Shown here one piece after another: positions 1 through 48,161 of a stretch of 64,000 bases of DNA. This stretch comes from Marvania coccoides (Eukaryota; Chlorophyta; Trebouxiophyceae; Chlorellales; Chlorellaceae). Numbering within the stretch: position 1 is the first letter of the stretch; the number at the start of each line of letters is the position of its first letter. The notes below the pieces were generated by a model that searched no databases, was not told the origin of the DNA, and saw only the letters and a list, made by a program, of their open reading frames with translations. The stretch lies in the NCBI GenBank assembly GCA_963854735.1, contig OY978102.1, positions 806,001 to 870,000 of the forward strand. The letters run 5' to 3'. Made by a program: the position numbers and the translations under genes.

Positions 1-1916
1 TCTTCCAACGAGGCCATCATGAGCGAGATCTTCGACACCGCCTTCGCCATCAAGCAGCGCATCTATGGCAACCGCATCGTGCTGTTCGCCCCCCTTTACC
101 TCGCCAATTACTGCGTTAACAACTGCCGCTACTGCGCCTATCGCGCCCCCAACAAAGCCATCGAACGCTCGTCGCTGACCGACGAGGCCCTGCGCGAAGA
201 AGTTGCCGCGCTGGAGCAGCAAGGGTAGGCACTTTTCTTTACCATTTCCTCCAATTTTCACTGTTTTCATGTCCTTCAAATATATATTAAATGAGAGTTT
301 TCTTTGCTGTTTTTGTGCGTGCAGCCACCGGCGGCTGTTGGTGCTGACGGGTGAACACCCCCGCTACACCTTTGACCGCTTCCTGGAGGCCATCGAGGTC
401 ATTTCTTCGGTGAAGACTGAGCCGTGCGGCAACATCCGCCGCGTCAACGTCGAGATCCCCTCCCTCTCCCTCTCCGACATGCGCCGGCTGAAAGCCACCG
501 ACAAGATCGGCACCTACACTTTGTTCCAAGAGACCTACCACAGGTGAGCAGATTTTGCATTTTTATTTAATATTTTTCAAGTTTATCTAGTGGCTTTTAT
601 GAAGAATTCGGCGCATTAAAACACAAAAATGGCATTTTTTTTAAATTATACGTTGTGCAGGCCCACCTTTAAGTTCATGCACATGGCAGGGCCCAAGAGC
701 GATTACAACAACCGGGTTCTGACGTTTGACCGCGCCATGCGTGCTGGGCTGGATGACGTGGGGCTGGGGGTGCTGTACGGGCTGTACGACTACCGTTACG
801 AGGTTCTGGCCACCCTGATGCACGCAAACCACCTTGAAAAAGAATACAACGCTGGGCCGCACACGATCTCGGTACCCCGCATGCGCCCGGCTGAAGGCAG
901 CGACGTGTCGCTGAGCCCGCCCTACCCCGTGAATGACGCGGATTTCAAGAAGCTGGTGGCGGTGCTGCGCATTGCGGTGGTAGGTGTAGTTGAATTTGTG
1001 GGAGAGAAACCTGATTTTTTTATTAATACGGTCTTATGTTTTCCCTTCGCTTCACCTCTGCGCAGCCCTACACTGGCATGATTCTGTCCACCCGCGAAAG
1101 CCCCGAGATGAGGAGGGAGCTGCTGCAACTGGGAATGAGCCAGGTGTCGGCTGGCTCGCGCACCGACGTGGGGGCCTACCACCGCGACACCTCCAAAGAG
1201 TCCGAGGCGGTGCTGGCTGACCTGAATGGCCAGTTCACGCTGGTAAGCTATTTTTCAGTTTTCCGTTTTCCGTTTTGAAAGCAATTGAGCAAATGTGGAT
1301 TTTTTGCGTCCAATTTTGCTGTTGATGATGACGAATACATCTTTTTTCTTCTTTTCATCATCCTTCTGTTATTGGGGTTTACAGGCCGACCACCGCCCTG
1401 TGAACGAGATTGTCGTCGATCTCATGAAGGAAGGCTACGTGCCGAGCTGGTGCACTGCCTGCTACCGTAAGGGCCGCACCGGAGAGCACTTTATGAAGAT
1501 CGCCAAGGCAGGCAACATCCACAACTTCTGCCACCCCAATTCGCTGCTCACGCTTCAGGCAAGCGAGAACATTCCTTGCGTACTCAACGGCGCTAGAGTA
1601 TTAGATTTTCCTATATTAGATATGAAAAAAATAGATTGCATAATGTCGTCTACTGTATACACATTTGAAAAAATGCATTCAGTTTTACCAGCAAAAGAGC
1701 TTCATCGTCTCTTAAGGGTTCCCCCGAACTGACGCAACAAACTAGTGTTGTTTGGCGCAGGAGTACCTCAACGATTACGGCACCGAGGAAGAGAAGGAGC
1801 TGGGCAAGCGGGTCATTGAGCGCGAGATCAATTCTGGGCTGTCCGAGGGCGCCCAGCGGCTGACGCGGCGCAAGCTGGAAAAAGTGAACAAGGGAGAGCA
1901 CGACGTGTACGTCTGA
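1..1916 (+). CDS. HYDG: [FeFe]-hydrogenase maturase HydG, 3' part of gene (six exons in window)
   Basis: HydG is a radical-SAM enzyme that splits tyrosine to supply CO and CN ligands for the [FeFe]-hydrogenase H-cluster; in green algae it acts in the plastid. Exons read here are 1-224, 325-543, 661-979, 1066-1242, 1385-1558 and 1761-1916, giving 422 residues in one frame; the N-terminus lies upstream of the window. The radical-SAM cluster motif CVNNCRYC (CX3CX2C) is in the first exon. The C-terminal second-cluster motif CX2CX22C (CTAC ... NFC) is in exon 5, so both iron-sulfur sites are intact. The last intron starts with GC (CAG|GCAAGC) and ends at 1760. Cluster spacing and the EYLNDY C-terminal region separate it from ThiH and HydE. 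The hydrogenase and HydEF are not in this window. Confidence 0.93.
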
Positions 1917-31047: not shown

Positions 31048-33504
31048 ATGCAGCGCCTTCGGGCTCTGCAGCGGCTCAAGCCGCTTACCGAGCAATCACA
31101 ATGTTCTTTGCAAGCCCAGCGCTGGATGGCAGCCGCAGCGGCCCCTGAGGACATGATTGAGGTCACCATCAACGGATCGCCCGTCAAAGTGGCCAAGGGA
31201 TCGAATGTGCTGCAAGCCTGCGAGGCAGCAGGCGTGGATGTGCCAAGGTTAGTAGCCCGGGAACACCCTTGCCCTGTGCAAGCGCTGCTGGACGAGGGGT
31301 GTCGATCTGGAAATCTTCCTCGCAGCCAGGAGATCCCACTGAATTCTGGGTTAATACAGCTTGACTAAAAAAATGCAAATTATTTTTTTATTTCCCTTCT
31401 CACTTTATCCTTCTCATTTCGCGCAGGTTTTGCTACCACCAGCGCCTCTCGATTGCCGGAAACTGCCGCATGTGCCTCGTGGAGGTGCGCTCGCTTGGGT
31501 TATCACAAACACTTTTTTTTTTTCTTCTTCTCCTATCCCAAATATTTATTCCTGCTCACACCCGTTCTCCCACCCCTCCCGAGCGAGCAGGTGGAGAAGA
31601 GCCCCAAGCCGGTGGCGTCGTGCGCGATGCCCGCCAACCCCGGCATGGTCATCAAGACCGACACCCCTCTGGTGAAGAAGGCGCGGGAGGGCGTGATGGA
31701 GTTCCTGCTGGTCAACCACCCCCTGGACTGCCCCATCTGCGACCAGGGCGGGGAGTGCGACCTGCAGGACCAGGCCATGAGCTTCGGATCCGACCGGGGG
31801 CGCTTCACCGAGGTCAAGCGCGCTGTGCACGACAAGAACCTGGGCCCCTTGGTCAAAACCGTGATGACGCGGTGCATCCACTGCACCCGCTGCGTGCGGT
31901 TCGCCAAAGAGGTCGCCGGGGTCGAAGACCTGGGAGTGACGGGGCGGGGACGGGACTCTGAGATCGGAACGTACGTGGAAAAGATGCTTACATCAGAGCT
32001 GTCCGGCAACGTCATCGACCTGTGCCCCGTGGGGGCGCTCACCTCAAAGCCCGCGGCGTTTACCTATCGCAACTGGGAGCTGCGCACCACCGAGAGCATC
32101 GACACCAGCGATGCCGTGGGGTCCAACATCAGAGTGGACGCGCGAGGGCTGGAGGTGCTCCGCATCCTGCCCCGCCTGAACGAGGACGTCAACCAGGAGT
32201 GGATCTCCGACAAAACGCGGTTCCAGTACGACGGGCTGCGGTACCAGCGGCTGACTGCGCCGATGGTGCGGTCGGCTGCCGCCGGCGGGCTGGCCCCGGC
32301 GGGGTGGGCGGAAGCTCTGGGCGCCGCCGCCAAAGCGCTGACGGGGGTGAAGGGCAACGAGATTCGCGCGATTGCGGGCAAGCTGGCGGACGCTGAGTCG
32401 ATGGTGGCGTTGAAGGATCTGGTGAACCGCCTGGGCGGCAGTGACCTCCGCCACGAGGCCGGATTCGCGGATCTGGACGCCGATGCGCGGTCCTCCTACC
32501 TGTTCAACTCCTCGCTCAAGGGCGTGGACGAGGCGGACGCCATCCTGCTGGTGGGAACCAACCCTCGGGTGGAGGCGCCGGTGCTGAACGCACGCCTGCG
32601 CACGGCGGTGATTGCAGGCACCCCTGTGGCCGTGATTGGCGCACCCGAGGATCTGACCTACCCGTACGACCACCTCGGCGAGGGCGCAGACGCGCTGGAC
32701 GCGCTGGCCAAGGCCTCTGCGGAGTGGCACAAGCGGCTGAAGGGTGCTCAGCGTCCCATGGTCATCGTGGGGGCGGGTGTGCTGAAACGGGGTGACCGTG
32801 ACGCGGTGCTGGCCCGCGTGCATAAGCTCGTCGACAAGACCGGCGTGGTGAAGCCCGAGGCCGCGTGGAACGGCTTTAACGTGCTGCACGACGCTGCAAG
32901 CCGAGTGGCGGCGCTGGACATCGGCTTCCTGCCCTCAGCGCGCGCGCGCGCGCCCAACGCCCCCGCTCCCAAGGTTGTCTTCCTCCTGGGAGCGGACGAC
33001 TACTCTGAGGCTGACGTCCCTGCGGACGCGTTCGTAATCTACCAGGGGCACCACGGTGATCGCGGCGCTGCTAGAGCCGATGTTATTCTCCCAGGCGCGG
33101 CCTACACCGAGAAGTCTGGGGTGTTTGTGAACACAGAGGGGCGGACGCAGTCCACCCGCGCGGCGGTGGCCCCCGTGGCGGAGGCTCGGGACGACTGGAA
33201 GGTGCTGCGAGCGTTGAGCGAGGTGGCAGGGGCGGCGCTGCCGTACGACACGCTGGAGGGCGTGCGGGAGCGGCTGGCGGAGGTGGCTCCCCACCTGGCG
33301 AACAAGGGCGCCGTGGAGCCGCCGCTGTGGCTGAATGGGGAGTACGTCAAGGCGGTGGAGGCGCGGGCGAAAAAGGCGCCGGTGTCTAAGGAGGCGCTGG
33401 CCACCTCGGTGGCGCAGTTCTACCAGACGGACGCCATCAGCCGCGCCAGCAAGACCATGGCGCGGTGCATCAAGGCTCGCGCCAACCCGCTGCCTGGGCT
33501 TTGA
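31048..33504 (+). CDS. NADH:ubiquinone oxidoreductase 75-kDa subunit (NDUFS1/NuoG)
   Basis: Peripheral-arm subunit of mitochondrial complex I that carries clusters N1b, N4 and N5. Exons are 31048-31247, 31427-31484 and 31591-33504. An amphipathic Arg-rich presequence ([13 protein letters not shown]) is followed by the ferredoxin-like domain with [19 protein letters not shown], the N5 ligands in [19 protein letters not shown], and the N4 motif [17 protein letters not shown], then [25 protein letters not shown]. The C-terminal molybdopterin-oxidoreductase-like domain ([23 protein letters not shown] ... [21 protein letters not shown], cut here for length) is complete. All cluster cysteines look intact. 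TGTAA is at 33615. The gene at 54174 resembles another complex I component, but the two loci are unlinked. Confidence 0.97.
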
Positions 33505-36935: not shown

Positions 36936-38369
36936 CACGGCTGAAGATTTTTTGGTGCAATTACTTGAATCCCAGCTACAAAGAGATGAAGGTGTCGGAG
37001 GAGTTTTTATTGGGGGTCTGCATCCTCCCGCCAATTTTTCGTGCTAAATAAAAACACGTACAAATATTGCGACATGGTATTATTATACGGCTTCTGATTA
37101 AAGCGATTGACGGGCAGGTGGGCCCTTTTAATAATTTATTTCAGATCAGTTCTCTTCAAAATCAAAATAAATAATACAAATAAATAAATAAATTCTTGGC
37201 TCCCACCCTATGCTTTGAAGGCAGCTACCCACACATCGGGTATTGGGCGCTGCGACCTGCCTGAAGGCAGCCGTCTGTGTCGCTGCCAACTGCACAGCAT
37301 CTGGAGTTCTAGTCTGTTTAAAATATTTTCTCGCTGTTTTTAACGCAGAAACTGGTGCGCCTGGCAGCCATGATTCTCATCGGGACTGTTCGCTCAGGGG
37401 CGCCTCTACCCCTGCCACCACCCCCCTTCCTCCTGAGCTGAGAGTGCCTTCCACCGCCATTGCCGTCGTTGCTGAGCCCAGGCTGCTGCGCCTACCGTCG
37501 TCGCAGCCGAAGCCGGAGCCACTGGTACCTCTGCTCTCGCCATCTCACCACGCCCCTCCTGAGCTTCGCTCTCGGGTGGCTGGTCATTGTCGCCACATTC
37601 AGCGTCATCCCGGCGTGCTCTCTTCTGGCTTCGGCCATCCGCTTTGTCCACCTGGCCATCATCGTCGTGGTACACGCCACAGGTTATGCGCTCGAATGCG
37701 TGGACTTAGGGGCAGGCACGCTTTGTGGCGACTGAGGCGGCGACGACAGCCCCAGCACATAAAGCACGCCTGAAAGCCAATGAAGCGCATAGCTGGATTT
37801 CTTTGATTTCTTGCGCGCACACTCTGTCAAAAATCGCGCCTTAATTGTCTTGAAAGTGTGCTGTGCTTCTGAAAACAAAGATGAGTGTTTTTCAAATAAA
37901 GGGAAAATTCAATTCTGTGAGCTGACAGACAAAACTCGGCATGCCCGTGTTTTTTGCCGGCAAAATTATTCAAGTAGTTGTTAAAAAATGGATATAAACT
38001 CGATAGAAAAGGTGCTGGGTGCAGCGGCTGCAGAGACCCCCAAACCACTTATGTTCTAATACAATTATTTCCAGAACAAAATAGGATCCTGCTTGGCATA
38101 CGGCTCGCTGCAAAGCAATGTTAATTTGGATGCTTTGAGGGAGATCGGAAAGGAGGGAAACCCGGCGGGGGTGAAACCGCATCGGCCTTGCATGGAAAAG
38201 TATAAGAAAAGAAAAATGTACGCCAGCTTTTTGTAGCCCGGTACCGTTGCATGGCGAGCCGCTTGGTTTCCCTTTCCTCGGCGAACTTATTTAATAATAA
38301 CGAGCTCAGTGCGTGCGAAAAGAGGCCCGAATTTGAGGAAAGCGAACTTTGGTCTATATATATAGGTAT
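36936..38369. other. Intergenic region with one weak ORF
   Basis: No confident gene. A frame from about 37460 (non-ATG) to 37735 encodes two possible membrane helices (LLSFALGWLVIVATFSVIPA and AIRFVHLAIIVVV), with an ATG-started segment in the same frame at 37370 broken by a stop before it. It could be a short membrane protein with an unseen splice, or chance. The rest is AT-rich. Confidence 0.3.
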
Positions 38370-38481
38370 ACATACATACATACATACATACATACATACA
38401 TACATACATACATACATACATACATACATACATACATACATACATACATACATACATACATACATACATACATACATACAT
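38370..38481. repeat. (CATA)n microsatellite, about 27 units
   Basis: An uninterrupted CATA/TGTA tetranucleotide array of about 110 bp. Family B retroelement ends at 28138, 35107 and 38700 terminate in short (TGTA)n runs, so this array may be an expanded retroelement tail. Confidence 0.95.
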
Positions 38482-38930: not shown

Positions 38931-40283
38931 TTTGGAGGTTTGGAGGTTTGGAGGTTTTACATATGGTTGTAACGTCTACTACCAAGGTTGGTGCAAGCCG
39001 ACGTGCCACTCACCCCGCCACAGTAAGGCGGAGTACCCCCTTCCATCCGTGGGATCAACCTCAGGTACTGGGGGCGTACGGATACAGCATTACGCCGATA
39101 CCGCACCGTCGCCCACAATGTAAGACTCTGGCCCCTGTCTTCCTGAGTCCCCCACCGGCGCGACCGACATGAATAAAAGAAAGAGGAAAAAAAAATTTGG
39201 GGAAAGCAGGACTCTCCGGACGGCAAACGGCCCGTCCGGTTTGGGGTTCGCGCTTGGGCAATGCTGGCCCGCCCAGCACCCCTCCCATCTACAGCGGTCA
39301 CTCAACCCCTGGCTTAAGGGTTTATGGTGTACTACCCGGTGTGCTCACTGGAAATGTGGCACCCGCCATTTGTACCCGTCCGATAGAGACTACGATACCA
39401 CGGGGAAGTGAAGCATCCGACGTCGCAGTGCAGTAAACAACCAAAGTTTACGCACTGGCAGCTACAATGAGCTAACTAGTAGGGAGCGCGAACCACCGCA
39501 TGTGCAAGCATAATATATTAAATAAATCACCATATTGTAAAATTTCTTCATCTTCGTAATCTTGACTCTCTCTCGCTCCTTGTGCTCTCTTTATTCGCCG
39601 CCTGTACGCCCTCCAGGTGCGCCCGCACCAGGGCTGCCACCTGGGTGAGGTCTGCCTCCGCCATTTCCAGCAGGCTCCTAGTCGTTGGCGCCGCTGCCAA
39701 CGCTGTGGCCGCCTGCGCCCGCTCTTGATGCAGCGCGGAGCAGGTGCGCAAGATGTGCGATTCGTGGTGCGGGCCTGGCTGCGCGCACAGGGGGCACACG
39801 GCTGGTGGGTGCCAGACTCCACTCTCCCCCACCCTTGGGACTCGGATCCATTGCACTCCTAGCCGGAAACGCGACAGCGCTGCTCTGTCCGCTCTCGGCA
39901 AGAGTGCCTGCAATACCGTCCCTTCCGCACTCTGCAGGTGGCGGTGGGGCACGTAGTCCTCCGCGGAGAGCGGTGTAGGGTACCAGGTGTCGAGATAAGT
40001 GCTAAGCTGCAAACTTGCCGACCCCGTCAGTGCTGCCAGCCATTTCCCCTCGGCATTGGTGCGCAGCAGTCCTGACGCGTCGTCATGGAGGGAGCCATTG
40101 GCGCGCATCACGCCGAACTCCCTTAGCATTGCGCGCGCCTCTGCCGCCCAGCACGGTGGCCACGCCGCCCTTGGCTCCGCCACCGGCAACCCAACCGCCG
40201 CCGCCGCCGCTGCTGTCACCTCCGCGGCAGCCCGCGTCGCCAGCTCGCCCTTCTCCATCTCCTCGCTGGCCAGAAACGCCTAG
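38931..40283 (-). mobile_element. 5'-truncated non-LTR retrotransposon (family A): RT C-terminal end plus 3' UTR
   Basis: Read on the minus strand, the element has the end of an ORF2-type protein (40279-39548), about 600 bp of 3' UTR, and a 3' tail of tandem AAACCTCC units at 38931-38955. The 3' UTR is repeated with apparent identity at 47526-48161, and its last 200 bp recur in diverged form at 40392-40591 and 41522-41812. A single-stranded 3' UTR, a short tandem tail and loss of everything 5' of the RT C-terminus are the hallmarks of a LINE that stopped reverse transcription early. The upstream boundary is approximate. Confidence 0.8.
39548..40279 (-). pseudogene. LINE ORF2 C-terminal fragment with zinc-knuckle-like domain
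   Basis: About 243 codons, stop at 39548; a TAG immediately precedes 40279, so there is no complete protein. The distal part resembles the end of LINE ORF2 proteins: ALSRFRLGVQWIRVPR followed by CPLCAQPGPHHESHILRTC, a C-x2-C-x7-H-x4-C arrangement like the zf-RVT module. The catalytic reverse-transcriptase and endonuclease domains are missing, so it cannot move on its own. Confidence 0.7.
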
Positions 40284-40391: not shown

Positions 40392-40591
40392 GTGTCGGTC
40401 GCGCCGTCGGGGACTCGGGGGCAGGGGCCAAAGCCCAGAACTGAGGTTGATCCGGCGGATGGAAGGGGGGCTCTGCCTTACTGTGGCGGGGTTTGTGGCA
40501 AGTCGACTTGCGGTTCTCTATAGGGGTAACCTCGGTAGTAGACGTCAAACCATCTGTAAAACCTCAAACCTCAAACCTCCTCGCGCCAAAA
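40392..40591 (+). mobile_element. LINE family A 3' end, diverged copy, plus strand
   Basis: Shares GTCGGTCGCGCC, GAGGTTGATCC.CGGATGGAAG, CCTTACTGTGGCGGGGT and GGTAGTAGACGT with the reverse complement of 38931-39180, and ends in tandem AAACCTC units. It points away from the element on its left, so these are two separate insertions, not one inverted element: both retain a 3' terminus. Confidence 0.7.
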
Positions 40592-41108
40592 ATTCATTTG
40601 TATTGAAGCTCTTGAGAGGTGAATTTTAGGAAGCCGCAACGCAAGAGCCAGACAGGGTATCCCCGAGCCTTGAGGAAGCTCTGGCGATCCGCAGAGCGGC
40701 CCATTGTCCCAAGCCCTCGCTGGCTACGTCTCCAGCGGGTATCGCATTTGATGGCGAGGGCGAAAATATGGGTTTTAAAGCTCAGAGAAGAGAGGTTCGA
40801 CAGAACAGTCCTTTGCAGGGAAATAGGCGCCGTGCATGCTAAAAATGCGAGCCCCAACATAGTTTTTGTTTCGGAGGTGGAACAAAAAATTAATTTCAAC
40901 GCCCGTCACAGCATCATTTGCTGTCCGTTTTTTTCCAGCTGGATCCCTGATGTCTGTAGACGTGTGCAGAGAGCTCAAATGAGTTTAAACGTTTGCTGGG
41001 AGGGCCGTGGAATCGGTTTGAACGAAGTGTTCTTTTGCAATTTCAGGTTATGCCGTATGCAGACGGCGTATGCAGGTGTTTTCGCGTGCATACGTGGTTT
41101 TTCGGTTG
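40592..41108. other. Region upstream of the permuted tRNA, no gene recognised
   Basis: An open frame runs 40619-41116 on the plus strand but has no recognisable motif, and its end overlaps the tRNA 3' half. GC content is lower than in real exons here. The last 25 bp (GTGGTTTTTCGGTTG at the end) form the leader of the permuted tRNA. Confidence 0.4.
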
Positions 41109-41201
41109 TGCGATAGGCCGAGGGTTCGATTCCTTCCAACTCCAAGAATACAGCCGGATGCATCTGGGGTTGTAGCTCAGGGGTAGAGCGATCGCTTCGC
41201 A
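41109..41201 (+). tRNA. Circularly permuted tRNA-Ala (anticodon CGC): 3' half upstream of 5' half
   Basis: The 3' half is first. 41109-41144 gives U38, anticodon-stem strand GCGAT, variable loop AGGCC, T-arm GAGGG-TTCGATT-CCTTC, acceptor strand CAACTCC and discriminator A. A 21-nt spacer (41145-41165) follows. The 5' half, 41166-41201, gives acceptor GGGGTTG, TA, D-arm GCTC-AGGGGTA-GAGC, G26, anticodon-stem strand ATCGC and loop TTCGCA. Joining A37 (41201) to U38 (41109) makes a normal cloverleaf: 7-bp acceptor, 5-bp anticodon stem ATCGC/GCGAT, 7-nt loop TTCGCAT, 5-bp T-stem. The acceptor has G3-U70, the alanine identity pair. A perfect B box (GGTTCGATTCC) lies upstream of the A box (TAGCTCAGGGG), and a T7 Pol III terminator follows the 5' half. 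Maturation should need circularisation and spacer removal, as known for permuted tRNAs in red and prasinophyte algae. Confidence 0.9.
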
Positions 41202-41204
41202 GGC

Positions 41205-41211
41205 TTTTTTT
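41205..41211 (+). terminator. Pol III T7 terminator of the permuted tRNA
   Basis: Seven consecutive T residues start three bases after the 5' half (A37). Termination after the 5' half, with nothing resembling a 3' half downstream, supports transcription of the permuted order. Confidence 0.8.
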
Positions 41212-41226
41212 GGCACCTTGGGATCT

Positions 41227-41262
41227 GGGGTTGTAGCTCAGGGGTAGAGCGATCGCTTCGCA
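41227..41262 (+). pseudogene. Tandem duplicate of the tRNA-Ala 5' half with its own T8 tract
   Basis: A 61-bp unit covering the 5' half, poly-T and the GGCACCTTGGGA spacer is duplicated (5' halves at 41166 and 41227, T tracts at 41205-41211 and 41265-41272). The second copy has no adjacent 3' half, so it cannot make a tRNA by itself unless the first terminator is read through. Confidence 0.8.
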
Positions 41263-41272
41263 GGTTTTTTTT

Positions 41273-41521
41273 GGCACCTTGGGAACTTTCAGGCTGCAAG
41301 GATGTAGCTAGCAAGGTTATTTGGGGCGGTTTTTCGATCGCCGAAATTTTTGTGCACTTTCTTCCCCGTATGTCACACGGCGATTCCGGTGGCTACGAGG
41401 GGTGAATTTGGTTTAGATGCATGCACTAGACGCTTCCAGTTTTTGATTATCGAGGAAAAACCAAAAAAAATATCACAGCTTGCCAAACCAATCTCCATCT
41501 TCGATGTAAAGTTTTTTTTTT
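41273..41521. other. Unassigned spacer after the tRNA locus
   Basis: About 250 bp of AT-rich sequence with no recognised gene, ending in a poly-T run next to a LINE end. Confidence 0.4.
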
Positions 41522-41812
41522 TGTGAGGTTGATCCGGCGGATGGAAGGGGGGCTCAGCCTTACTGTGGCGAGGTTTGTGGCACGTCGACTTGCGGTTCTC
41601 TATAGGGGCGAACCAAAACCTGCAAACCTGTAAACCTGCAAACCTGCAAACTTAGTTTGAAACTAAACAATTTAACCAAAACCTGCAAACCTGTAAACCT
41701 CCAAACCTGCAAACCTCGCGAAGGTAACGTCTCCAACCCACGGTACCAACTTCGGTAGTAGACGTTACACCAATATGCAAAACCTGAAACCTGAAACCTG
41801 TGGGACATTATC
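41522..41812 (+). mobile_element. LINE family A 3' end with long AAACCTG tail
   Basis: Begins GAGGTTGATCCGGCGGATGG as in the copy at 40392-40591, then a long run of AAACCTG/AAACCTC/AAACTTA units (41626-41717) interrupted by a second GGTAGTAGACGT-like block and a second short AAACCTG run ending near 41800. The doubled tail may record two successive insertions into the same site. Confidence 0.65.
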
Positions 41813-47462: not shown

Positions 47463-47525
47463 GTTTAAGCCAAGGCGGAAAGAATCTGCGTAGGTCAGGA
47501 CAGGCGGTTATAATTTGAATTTTTT

Positions 47526-48161
47526 TCATGGAGGAGGTTTGGAGGTTTGGAGGTTTTACATATGGTTGTAACGTCTACTACCAAGGTTGGTGCAAGCCGA
47601 CGTGCCACTCACCCCGCCACAGTAAGGCGGAGTACCCCCTTCCATCCGTGGGATCAACCTCAGGTACTGGGGGCGTACGGATACAGCATTACGCCGATAC
47701 CGCACCGTCGCCCACAATGTAAGACTCTGGCCCCTGTCTTCCTGAGTCCCCCACCGGCGCGACCGACATGAATAAAAGAAAGAGGAAAAAAAAATTTGGG
47801 GAAAGCAGGACTCTCCGGACGGCAAACGGCCCGTCCGGTTTGGGGTTCGCGCTTGGGCAATGCTGGCCCGCCCAGCACCCCTCCCATCTACAGCGGTCAC
47901 TCAACCCCTGGCTTAAGGGTTTATGGTGTACTACCCGGTGTGCTCACTGGAAATGTGGCACCCGCCATTTGTACCCGTCCGATAGAGACTACGATACCAC
48001 GGGGAAGTGAAGCATCCGACGTCGCAGTGCAGTAAACAACCAAAGTTTACGCACTGGCAGCTACAATGAGCTAACTAGTAGGGAGCGCGAACCACCGCAT
48101 GTGCAAGCATAATATATTAAATAAATCACCATATTGTAAAATTTCTTCATCTTCGTAATCT
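47526..48161 (-). mobile_element. LINE family A 3' UTR-only insertion, apparently identical to 38931-39561
   Basis: About 630 bp matching the 3' UTR and AAACCTCC tail at 38931-39561 with no difference seen. Similarity stops at CTTCGTAATCT (48160), just short of the ORF2 stop region. It interrupts the right arm of the inverted duplication: sequences on its two sides (47463-47520 and 48162 onward) align to one continuous stretch of the left arm near 43500. So it inserted after the duplication. Confidence 0.85.

Follow-up and report, generated by a model that had tools for sequence, protein, structure and literature searches.

How should a tRNA gene be read when the 3′ half of the tRNA is encoded ahead of the 5′ half? 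The question is raised by a short segment of the 64,000-nucleotide stretch of DNA that was analysed here and that we call the window. On the plus strand, the 3′ half of a tRNA-Ala(CGC) (41109-41144, tRNA positions 38-73) precedes the 5′ half (41166-41201, positions 1-37). The two lie 21 nt apart, and in order, coordinates and gap the sequence agrees with an initial annotation of this DNA. The 3′ half consists of T38, the 3′ strand of the anticodon stem, the variable loop, the T arm, the 3′ strand of the acceptor stem (CAACTCC) and the discriminator A73, and its T arm contains the B-box sequence GGTTCGATTCC (41123-41133, plus strand; pattern match at G000:C6:847123-847133). The 5′ half supplies G3 (41168), which pairs with U70, as well as U33 (41197) and the anticodon CGC (41198-41200). 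Upstream of the 3′ half is a putative leader (41095-41108) whose last six bases are CGGTTG, three of which can pair with tRNA positions 33-35. The intervening sequence of 21 nt between the discriminator and G1 (41145-41165) is predicted to be excised; it contains no T-run and, as AGAAT comes next after A73, CCA is not encoded. Behind the 5′ half, a trailer (41202-41211) made up of GGC and seven T (41205-41211) is presumed to end in a Pol III terminator. The initial annotation had also placed a B box ahead of the A box and a run of seven T behind the 5′ half, and both are present. No clear TATA box was seen upstream at this locus. With its junction at 37/38, the gene is a type II member of the known class of circularly permuted tRNA genes.

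When the halves are joined at A37/U38 they give 72 bases that form a complete cloverleaf (-25.0 kcal/mol) with seven acceptor, four D, five anticodon and five T pairs. U8, A14, U33 and TTC are all present together with the paired stems, and ARAGORN calls the joined halves Ala(cgc). Folding and ARAGORN on the join thus confirm the four paired stems, U33, the CGC anticodon and the G3-U70 pair claimed previously. In genomic order and without introns, ARAGORN finds no tRNA at the locus, and Rfam reports none in the 64-kb window at the gathering score; both results are expected because the gene is permuted. A covariance model of a permuted tRNA (R1) was trained without the Ala(CGC) gene, using 15 conventional tRNAs from the same assembly that were permuted in silico and given random spacers (eight mitochondrial, including Ala(TGC), two plastid and five nuclear). 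In the window R1 scores 62.4 bits exactly at 41109-41201, with an E-value of 2.9e-18 that is only approximate, since for matches this strong the tool can err by orders of magnitude. This match stands well clear of any other: up to E 10 there is just one more, the D-arm of a second 5′ half, at 9.0 bits. This score, together with the symmetric test with shuffled acceptor strands described below, rules out a chance arrangement. One might still suppose that a conventional gene or a tandem pair had been misassembled, or that chance was at work. There is indeed a tandem repeat at the site, and the arrangement was judged from the assembled sequence. However, the E-value of R1, the recurrence of this order of halves in 13 further genes for other tRNAs, and the permuted tRNAs published in the related alga Auxenochlorella (in the accessible parts of PMC12633428 and PMC12636532) make an error of this kind scarcely credible.

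The tandem repeat (41162-41284; 2.0 copies, 98% matches) contains a duplicate that the initial annotation had overlooked. Its first copy, of 61 bp (41162-41222, plus strand), spans the last four spacer bases, the 5′ half, the T-run and GGCACCTTGGG, and its second copy (41223-41284, plus strand) has one mismatch in 61 against the first. The second copy therefore carries another 5′ half (41227-41262, plus strand), identical to the first in 36 of 36 bases and followed by GG and eight T (41265-41272). Because the trailer and T-run were copied too, the duplication would have taken place after permutation, and this extra 5′ half is, on the sequence, most likely a recent tandem duplicate. It is probably dispensable. 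With one 3′ half followed by two identical 5′ halves, it is conceivable that the gene is functional but that its 3′ half is joined to the second 5′ half by read-through, or that the product is a split tRNA joined in trans. ARAGORN does choose the second copy on a circular or doubled stretch; when introns are allowed and a 250-nt piece is treated as a circle, the call is Ala(cgc), but by way of that copy. On the other hand, a run of seven T separates the two 5′ halves, the extra copy has the look of a recent duplicate already noted, and in 14 of the 14 permuted genes described below a 5′ half is found close by in cis (6-85 nt, in a search that reached about 150 nt downstream). As regards a split tRNA, the two halves considered here share a strand, with 21 nt between them, and no other locus is matched by the joined sequence. 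We consider joining to the second copy or in trans very unlikely, and regard 41166-41201 as the 5′ half of the gene. The same pattern is seen at a permuted Leu(CAG) locus (L020, about 127-311, and L122, 1-30; G000:C2 about 846600-846810), where behind the gene come a truncated 3′ half and then a further, complete 5′ half that has a T-run too. In Ostreococcus lucimarinus, an extra 5′ half that lies downstream of the permuted Cys(GCA) gene is regarded as a possible permutation intermediate in the part of a 2014 review that was accessible (PMC3978253).

The joined tRNA was compared with the whole genome (22.46 Mb in 15 contigs) at E up to 10, and yielded three matches, all at this site: one to the 3′ half and one to each of the 5′ halves. 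A DNA search of this kind picks up close matches only, and a divergent Ala(CGC) could escape it. A search with the tRNA model RF00005 gave nine nuclear matches, of which zero are Ala. Thus a conventional tRNA-Ala(CGC) gene, which the initial annotation had named as counter-evidence, appeared neither in the close-match genome search nor in the RF00005 search, and RF00005 and the B-box census described below revealed no other nuclear Ala gene with any anticodon. GCG is the commonest alanine codon, with 223 of the 452 in the six window ORFs that were taken as coding. A tRNA-Ala with U34 could read GCG too. Because there is a single matching locus, a need for the gene is likely. These data bear on the reading that the halves are non-functional remains of a broken tandem array and are not transcribed or matured. 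Degenerate permuted-like sequences do exist in the genome (L101, L085 and an orphan 5′ half in L067), and the linear RNA, by energy alone, misses the processed form. Against this, all the stems of the Ala gene are intact, the T-run stands directly behind the 5′ half, and the joined tRNA is without another genome match while GCG is so prominent a codon. A relic is for these reasons very improbable indeed.

How common is this arrangement in the genome as a whole? Nuclear sites matching GGTTCRANYCC (four patterns) were collected, which gave 86 matches and 85 distinct sites; the match that was dropped, L084, has a 51-nt context that is the same as that of the 3′ half of Lys(CTT). At each site the same rule was applied upstream and downstream, in search of a 5′ half that pairs with the acceptor strand and possesses a D-arm. 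The search extended about 150 nt downstream, and upstream it reached only about 150 nt at 14 loci, where conventional genes with long introns could therefore be missed. A matching 5′ half was found downstream, as in a permuted gene, at 15 of the 85 sites and upstream at 10; none had both and 60 had neither, 36 of these being without a T-stem. Shuffled acceptor strands lead one to expect 1.5 downstream and 1.2 upstream. Of the 15 downstream sites, 14 are convincing permuted genes, that is, 13 besides Ala(CGC). The set comprises Ala(CGC), Arg(CCG), Arg(CCT), Arg(TCG), Arg(TCT), Asn(GTT), Glu(CTC), Gly(GCC), Ile(AAT), Leu(CAG), Phe(GAA), Ser(GCT), Thr(CGT) and Thr(TGT). ARAGORN assigns to each of the 14 joined sequences the anticodon given here. 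In every one the break is at 37/38, the spacer measures between 6 and 85 nt, and a run of four or more T begins 2 to 8 nt past the 5′ half; the background probability of such a run is 0.076 per random nuclear 16-mer. R1 scores 11 of the 14 at 41-70 bits. Ser(GCT) and Leu(CAG) score 37.6 and 36.0 bits and, owing to their long variable arms, have their start misplaced. Gly(GCC) was missed by R1 and came from other searches, the symmetric test among them. This gene (L019, minus strand) has a spacer of 85 nt, compared with 74 nt for the longest in the accessible part of the 2014 review (PMC3978253). Inspection of the 14 leaders revealed no shared TATA box or upstream motif; their AT content is 0.46-0.62 per 10-nt bin, against a background of 0.44.

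Several further R1 matches of 30 bits or more were set aside. The remaining downstream site, L101, scores 55.6 bits with R1 and its join is called Glu(ttc) by ARAGORN, but it lacks a T-run and, in the R1 register, also U33; it is counted with the 15 downstream sites and enters the pairing analysis below, and is not one of the 14. L085 (36.6 bits) is degenerate and also has no T-run, L018 (31.4 bits) is a conventional Thr gene, and L029 (30.0 bits) is Arg(ACG) with a 95-nt intron. The sequences in L101 (1487-1569) and L085 (1444-1521, minus strand) look like decayed permuted tRNAs, with an unclear anticodon loop, and are possible permuted pseudogenes. Isolated halves were seen as well. In L067 (about 447-481, minus strand) there is an orphan 5′ half that is similar to Thr(CGT) and is followed by a T-run, at a distance of some 1 kb from the permuted gene for Thr(CGT); no intact T arm was seen beside it. 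A second 3′ half of Lys(CTT) lies in L084 (about 1487-1523; G000:C8:773621), about 5 kb from the gene (C8:768592), and no 5′ half was seen in the surrounding stretch that was read.

Conventional nuclear genes number 13 in our survey: Val(TAC), Gln(CTG), Met(CAT), Gly(TCC), Glu(TTC), Cys(GCA), Asp(GTC), Lys(CTT) and Thr(AGT), with a further four that have introns, Ser(TGA), Ser(CGA), Arg(ACG) and Ile(TAT). Seven of the 13 have an intron in the anticodon loop. No anticodon is common to the permuted and conventional lists. With RF00005, 61 genes were recovered at E 0.001 (62 at E 10), and its nuclear count of nine is incomplete because intron-bearing genes are missed, four of which were found at B-box sites. 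As judged from these predictions, about half of the nuclear tRNA genes found are permuted. For both kinds of gene the census is a lower bound, since it is confined to an intact B box of the form GGTTCRANYCC, and a permutation within the T loop would disrupt that pattern. Of 42 nuclear AGTTCRANTCT sites it covers three, all already known, and the other 39, like other forms of the B box, are outside the count.

We may now ask whether the transcript could be processed at the junction. The register of the bulge-helix-bulge we take to be that of the leader against tRNA positions 32-35. In the Ala gene, three of the four central pairs can form (33-35), and position 32 faces leader position -3 as U-U. 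Over 15 genes, with L101 included, the central helix has 39 of 60 pairs, compared with a mean of 30.2 when leaders were dealt out at random among genes (p=0.0008). The expected register is the best of seven, the neighbouring one giving 36 pairs. Position 32 taken alone is paired in 8 of the 15 genes, against a mean of 7.8, and so is at chance level. The minimum-energy fold of the linear Ala RNA (-31.8) is a different one and contains no bulge-helix-bulge. Adding the three leader pairs did not lower the computed energy (-21.2 vs -22.6), and the z-score for folding of the whole transcript is 0.44. The bulge-helix-bulge anticipated at the two ends of the gene therefore fares unevenly: three of its four pairs are available and the set-wide pairing is significantly above the random expectation, whereas it is absent from the minimum-energy fold. 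The match between the halves themselves was assessed in an alignment of 11 permuted genes, which are different tRNAs and were fitted to the structure; 98.3% of the cells are paired, compared with 59.5% after shuffling and 38.9-48.9% after sliding. Changes on both sides of a pair number 89 cells, compared with 26.9 after shuffling. Because the alignment is fitted to the structure and its members are different tRNAs, this covariation indicates that the halves match each other and does not speak to circle formation.

These considerations suggest the following route to the mature tRNA. Pol III would transcribe the leader, 3′ half, spacer and 5′ half, and would stop at the T-run. The tRNA-splicing endonuclease would then cut at the junction in the anticodon loop and so release leader and trailer, after which a ligase would close position 37 to 38 to give a circle, from which RNase P and tRNase Z would excise the spacer at the acceptor end. 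After addition of CCA, the finished tRNA would read GCG. This proposal agrees with the route published for permuted tRNAs, including the step that involves RNase P and tRNase Z, as described in the accessible part of the review (PMC3978253). The catalytic domain of the tRNA-splicing endonuclease (PF01974) has two matches in the genome (63 and 53 bits), and its control was positive only in the four archaea. The B-block-binding domain of TFIIIC (PF04182) has one match of 46 bits, which is weak evidence because its control was also positive in two bacteria and two archaea. In Cyanidioschyzon, TFC1 and TFC3 homologues are reported as not identified (accessible part of PMC3978253), to be set beside this weak match. 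The lack of a conventional copy among the matches of the close-match and RF00005 searches, the T-run, the lack of an encoded CCA and the 13 further genes all support the original interpretation of the locus as permuted. From the DNA itself, we are highly confident that this nuclear locus encodes tRNA-Ala(CGC) in a functional, single-copy gene that is circularly permuted and of type II (37/38).

Permuted tRNA genes were reportedly described in Cyanidioschyzon merolae by Soma et al. in 2007. For comparison with other genomes we relied on the 2014 review, as far as it was accessible to us. Its table contains 34 permuted tRNA genes from seven species, with at most 11 per genome, and the only alanine entry is Ala(TGC), of type IV (PMC3978253). 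The Cyanidioschyzon genes resemble those described here in their permuted order, the downstream T-stretch and the lack of an encoded CCA. They are processed via a circle, as is proposed here. In that alga 11 of 43 genes are permuted, with junctions also in the D and T arms, as in the type IV Ala(TGC). Here, unlike in Cyanidioschyzon, all 14 junctions are at 37/38, in a search limited to an intact B box. The nuclear permuted genes of green algae are more alike, in that their junctions are mostly at 37/38, their spacers are short, and both class I and class II tRNAs are represented. The table nevertheless has at most six of them per genome and no Ala, compared with 14 here that include Ala(CGC), Phe, Ile, Gly, Glu, Thr and four Arg (PMC3978253). 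Two permuted Ser genes occur in a further nucleomorph, according to the accessible part of PMC4494063.

The initial annotation held that permuted tRNAs are known from a few lineages only. Its list is incomplete, as Auxenochlorella is missing: permuted tRNA genes are reported in the trebouxiophyte Auxenochlorella UTEX 250-A, in the parts of two papers that were accessible (PMC12633428, PMC12636532). That alga is related to the one studied here, has permuted genes and likewise has an incomplete tRNAscan-SE set. Among the open-access papers listed for this topic, no further trebouxiophyte with permuted tRNAs was found besides Auxenochlorella. The class itself is known; what is unusual is the size of the set, which holds more permuted genes than any genome in the review table as accessed (PMC3978253). 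We think it rather probable that permutation is the main way of encoding cytosolic tRNAs in this alga, accounting for at least half of the nuclear genes, including the only ones found for Phe, Asn, Leu and Ala. If this is true, much translation would depend on circular RNA intermediates, and the repeated 5′ halves at the Ala and Leu loci would show that genes still duplicate after permutation. What leads tRNA genes to be permuted, and whether processing through a circle serves a purpose, are described as open questions in the accessible part of the review (PMC3978253). A genome in which about half the genes are permuted, all at 37/38, seven of the 13 conventional genes have introns and fresh copies of half-genes are present would make it possible to weigh models of origin against each other for individual genes. 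Standard annotation of tRNAs in such algae overlooks a large part of the set, as the nine nuclear genes recovered with RF00005 illustrate.

The relationships of the host were approached through proteins. An ORF for NDUFS1 in the window (31627-33504) is 74-75% identical to its counterparts in Micractinium and Chlorella and 70% to that of Auxenochlorella, among named proteins. For cytochrome b, the best named protein among the matches listed is that of Prototheca wickerhamii (85%). The top matches overall are metagenome proteins (80% for NDUFS1 and 99% for cytochrome b). By this evidence the host is a trebouxiophyte close to Chlorellales and is a different species from Auxenochlorella UTEX 250-A. 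Two contigs look like organelle genomes from their proteins, C14 (49 kb) being the mitochondrion, with cytochrome b, and C15 (100 kb) the plastid, with what we take to be PsbA.

Some features of the surrounding sequence may be recorded. A dispersed repeat, roughly 140 bp long and containing AAACCTG-type runs, flanks the tRNA locus on either side in direct copies (40434-40596, and 41524-41608 with 41745-41799) and has copies on the minus strand at 38934-39072 and 47516-47671; it occurs also in at least L047, L083, L086, L088, L093 and L117. About 60 bp of the window (41319-41376) are 83% alike to L076 (1806-1863). This likeness sits some 120-200 nt downstream of the permuted Ala and Asn genes, and may be due to chance or be part of a repeat. 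Finally, a perfect ATAC microsatellite of 28.5 copies occupies 38368-38481.
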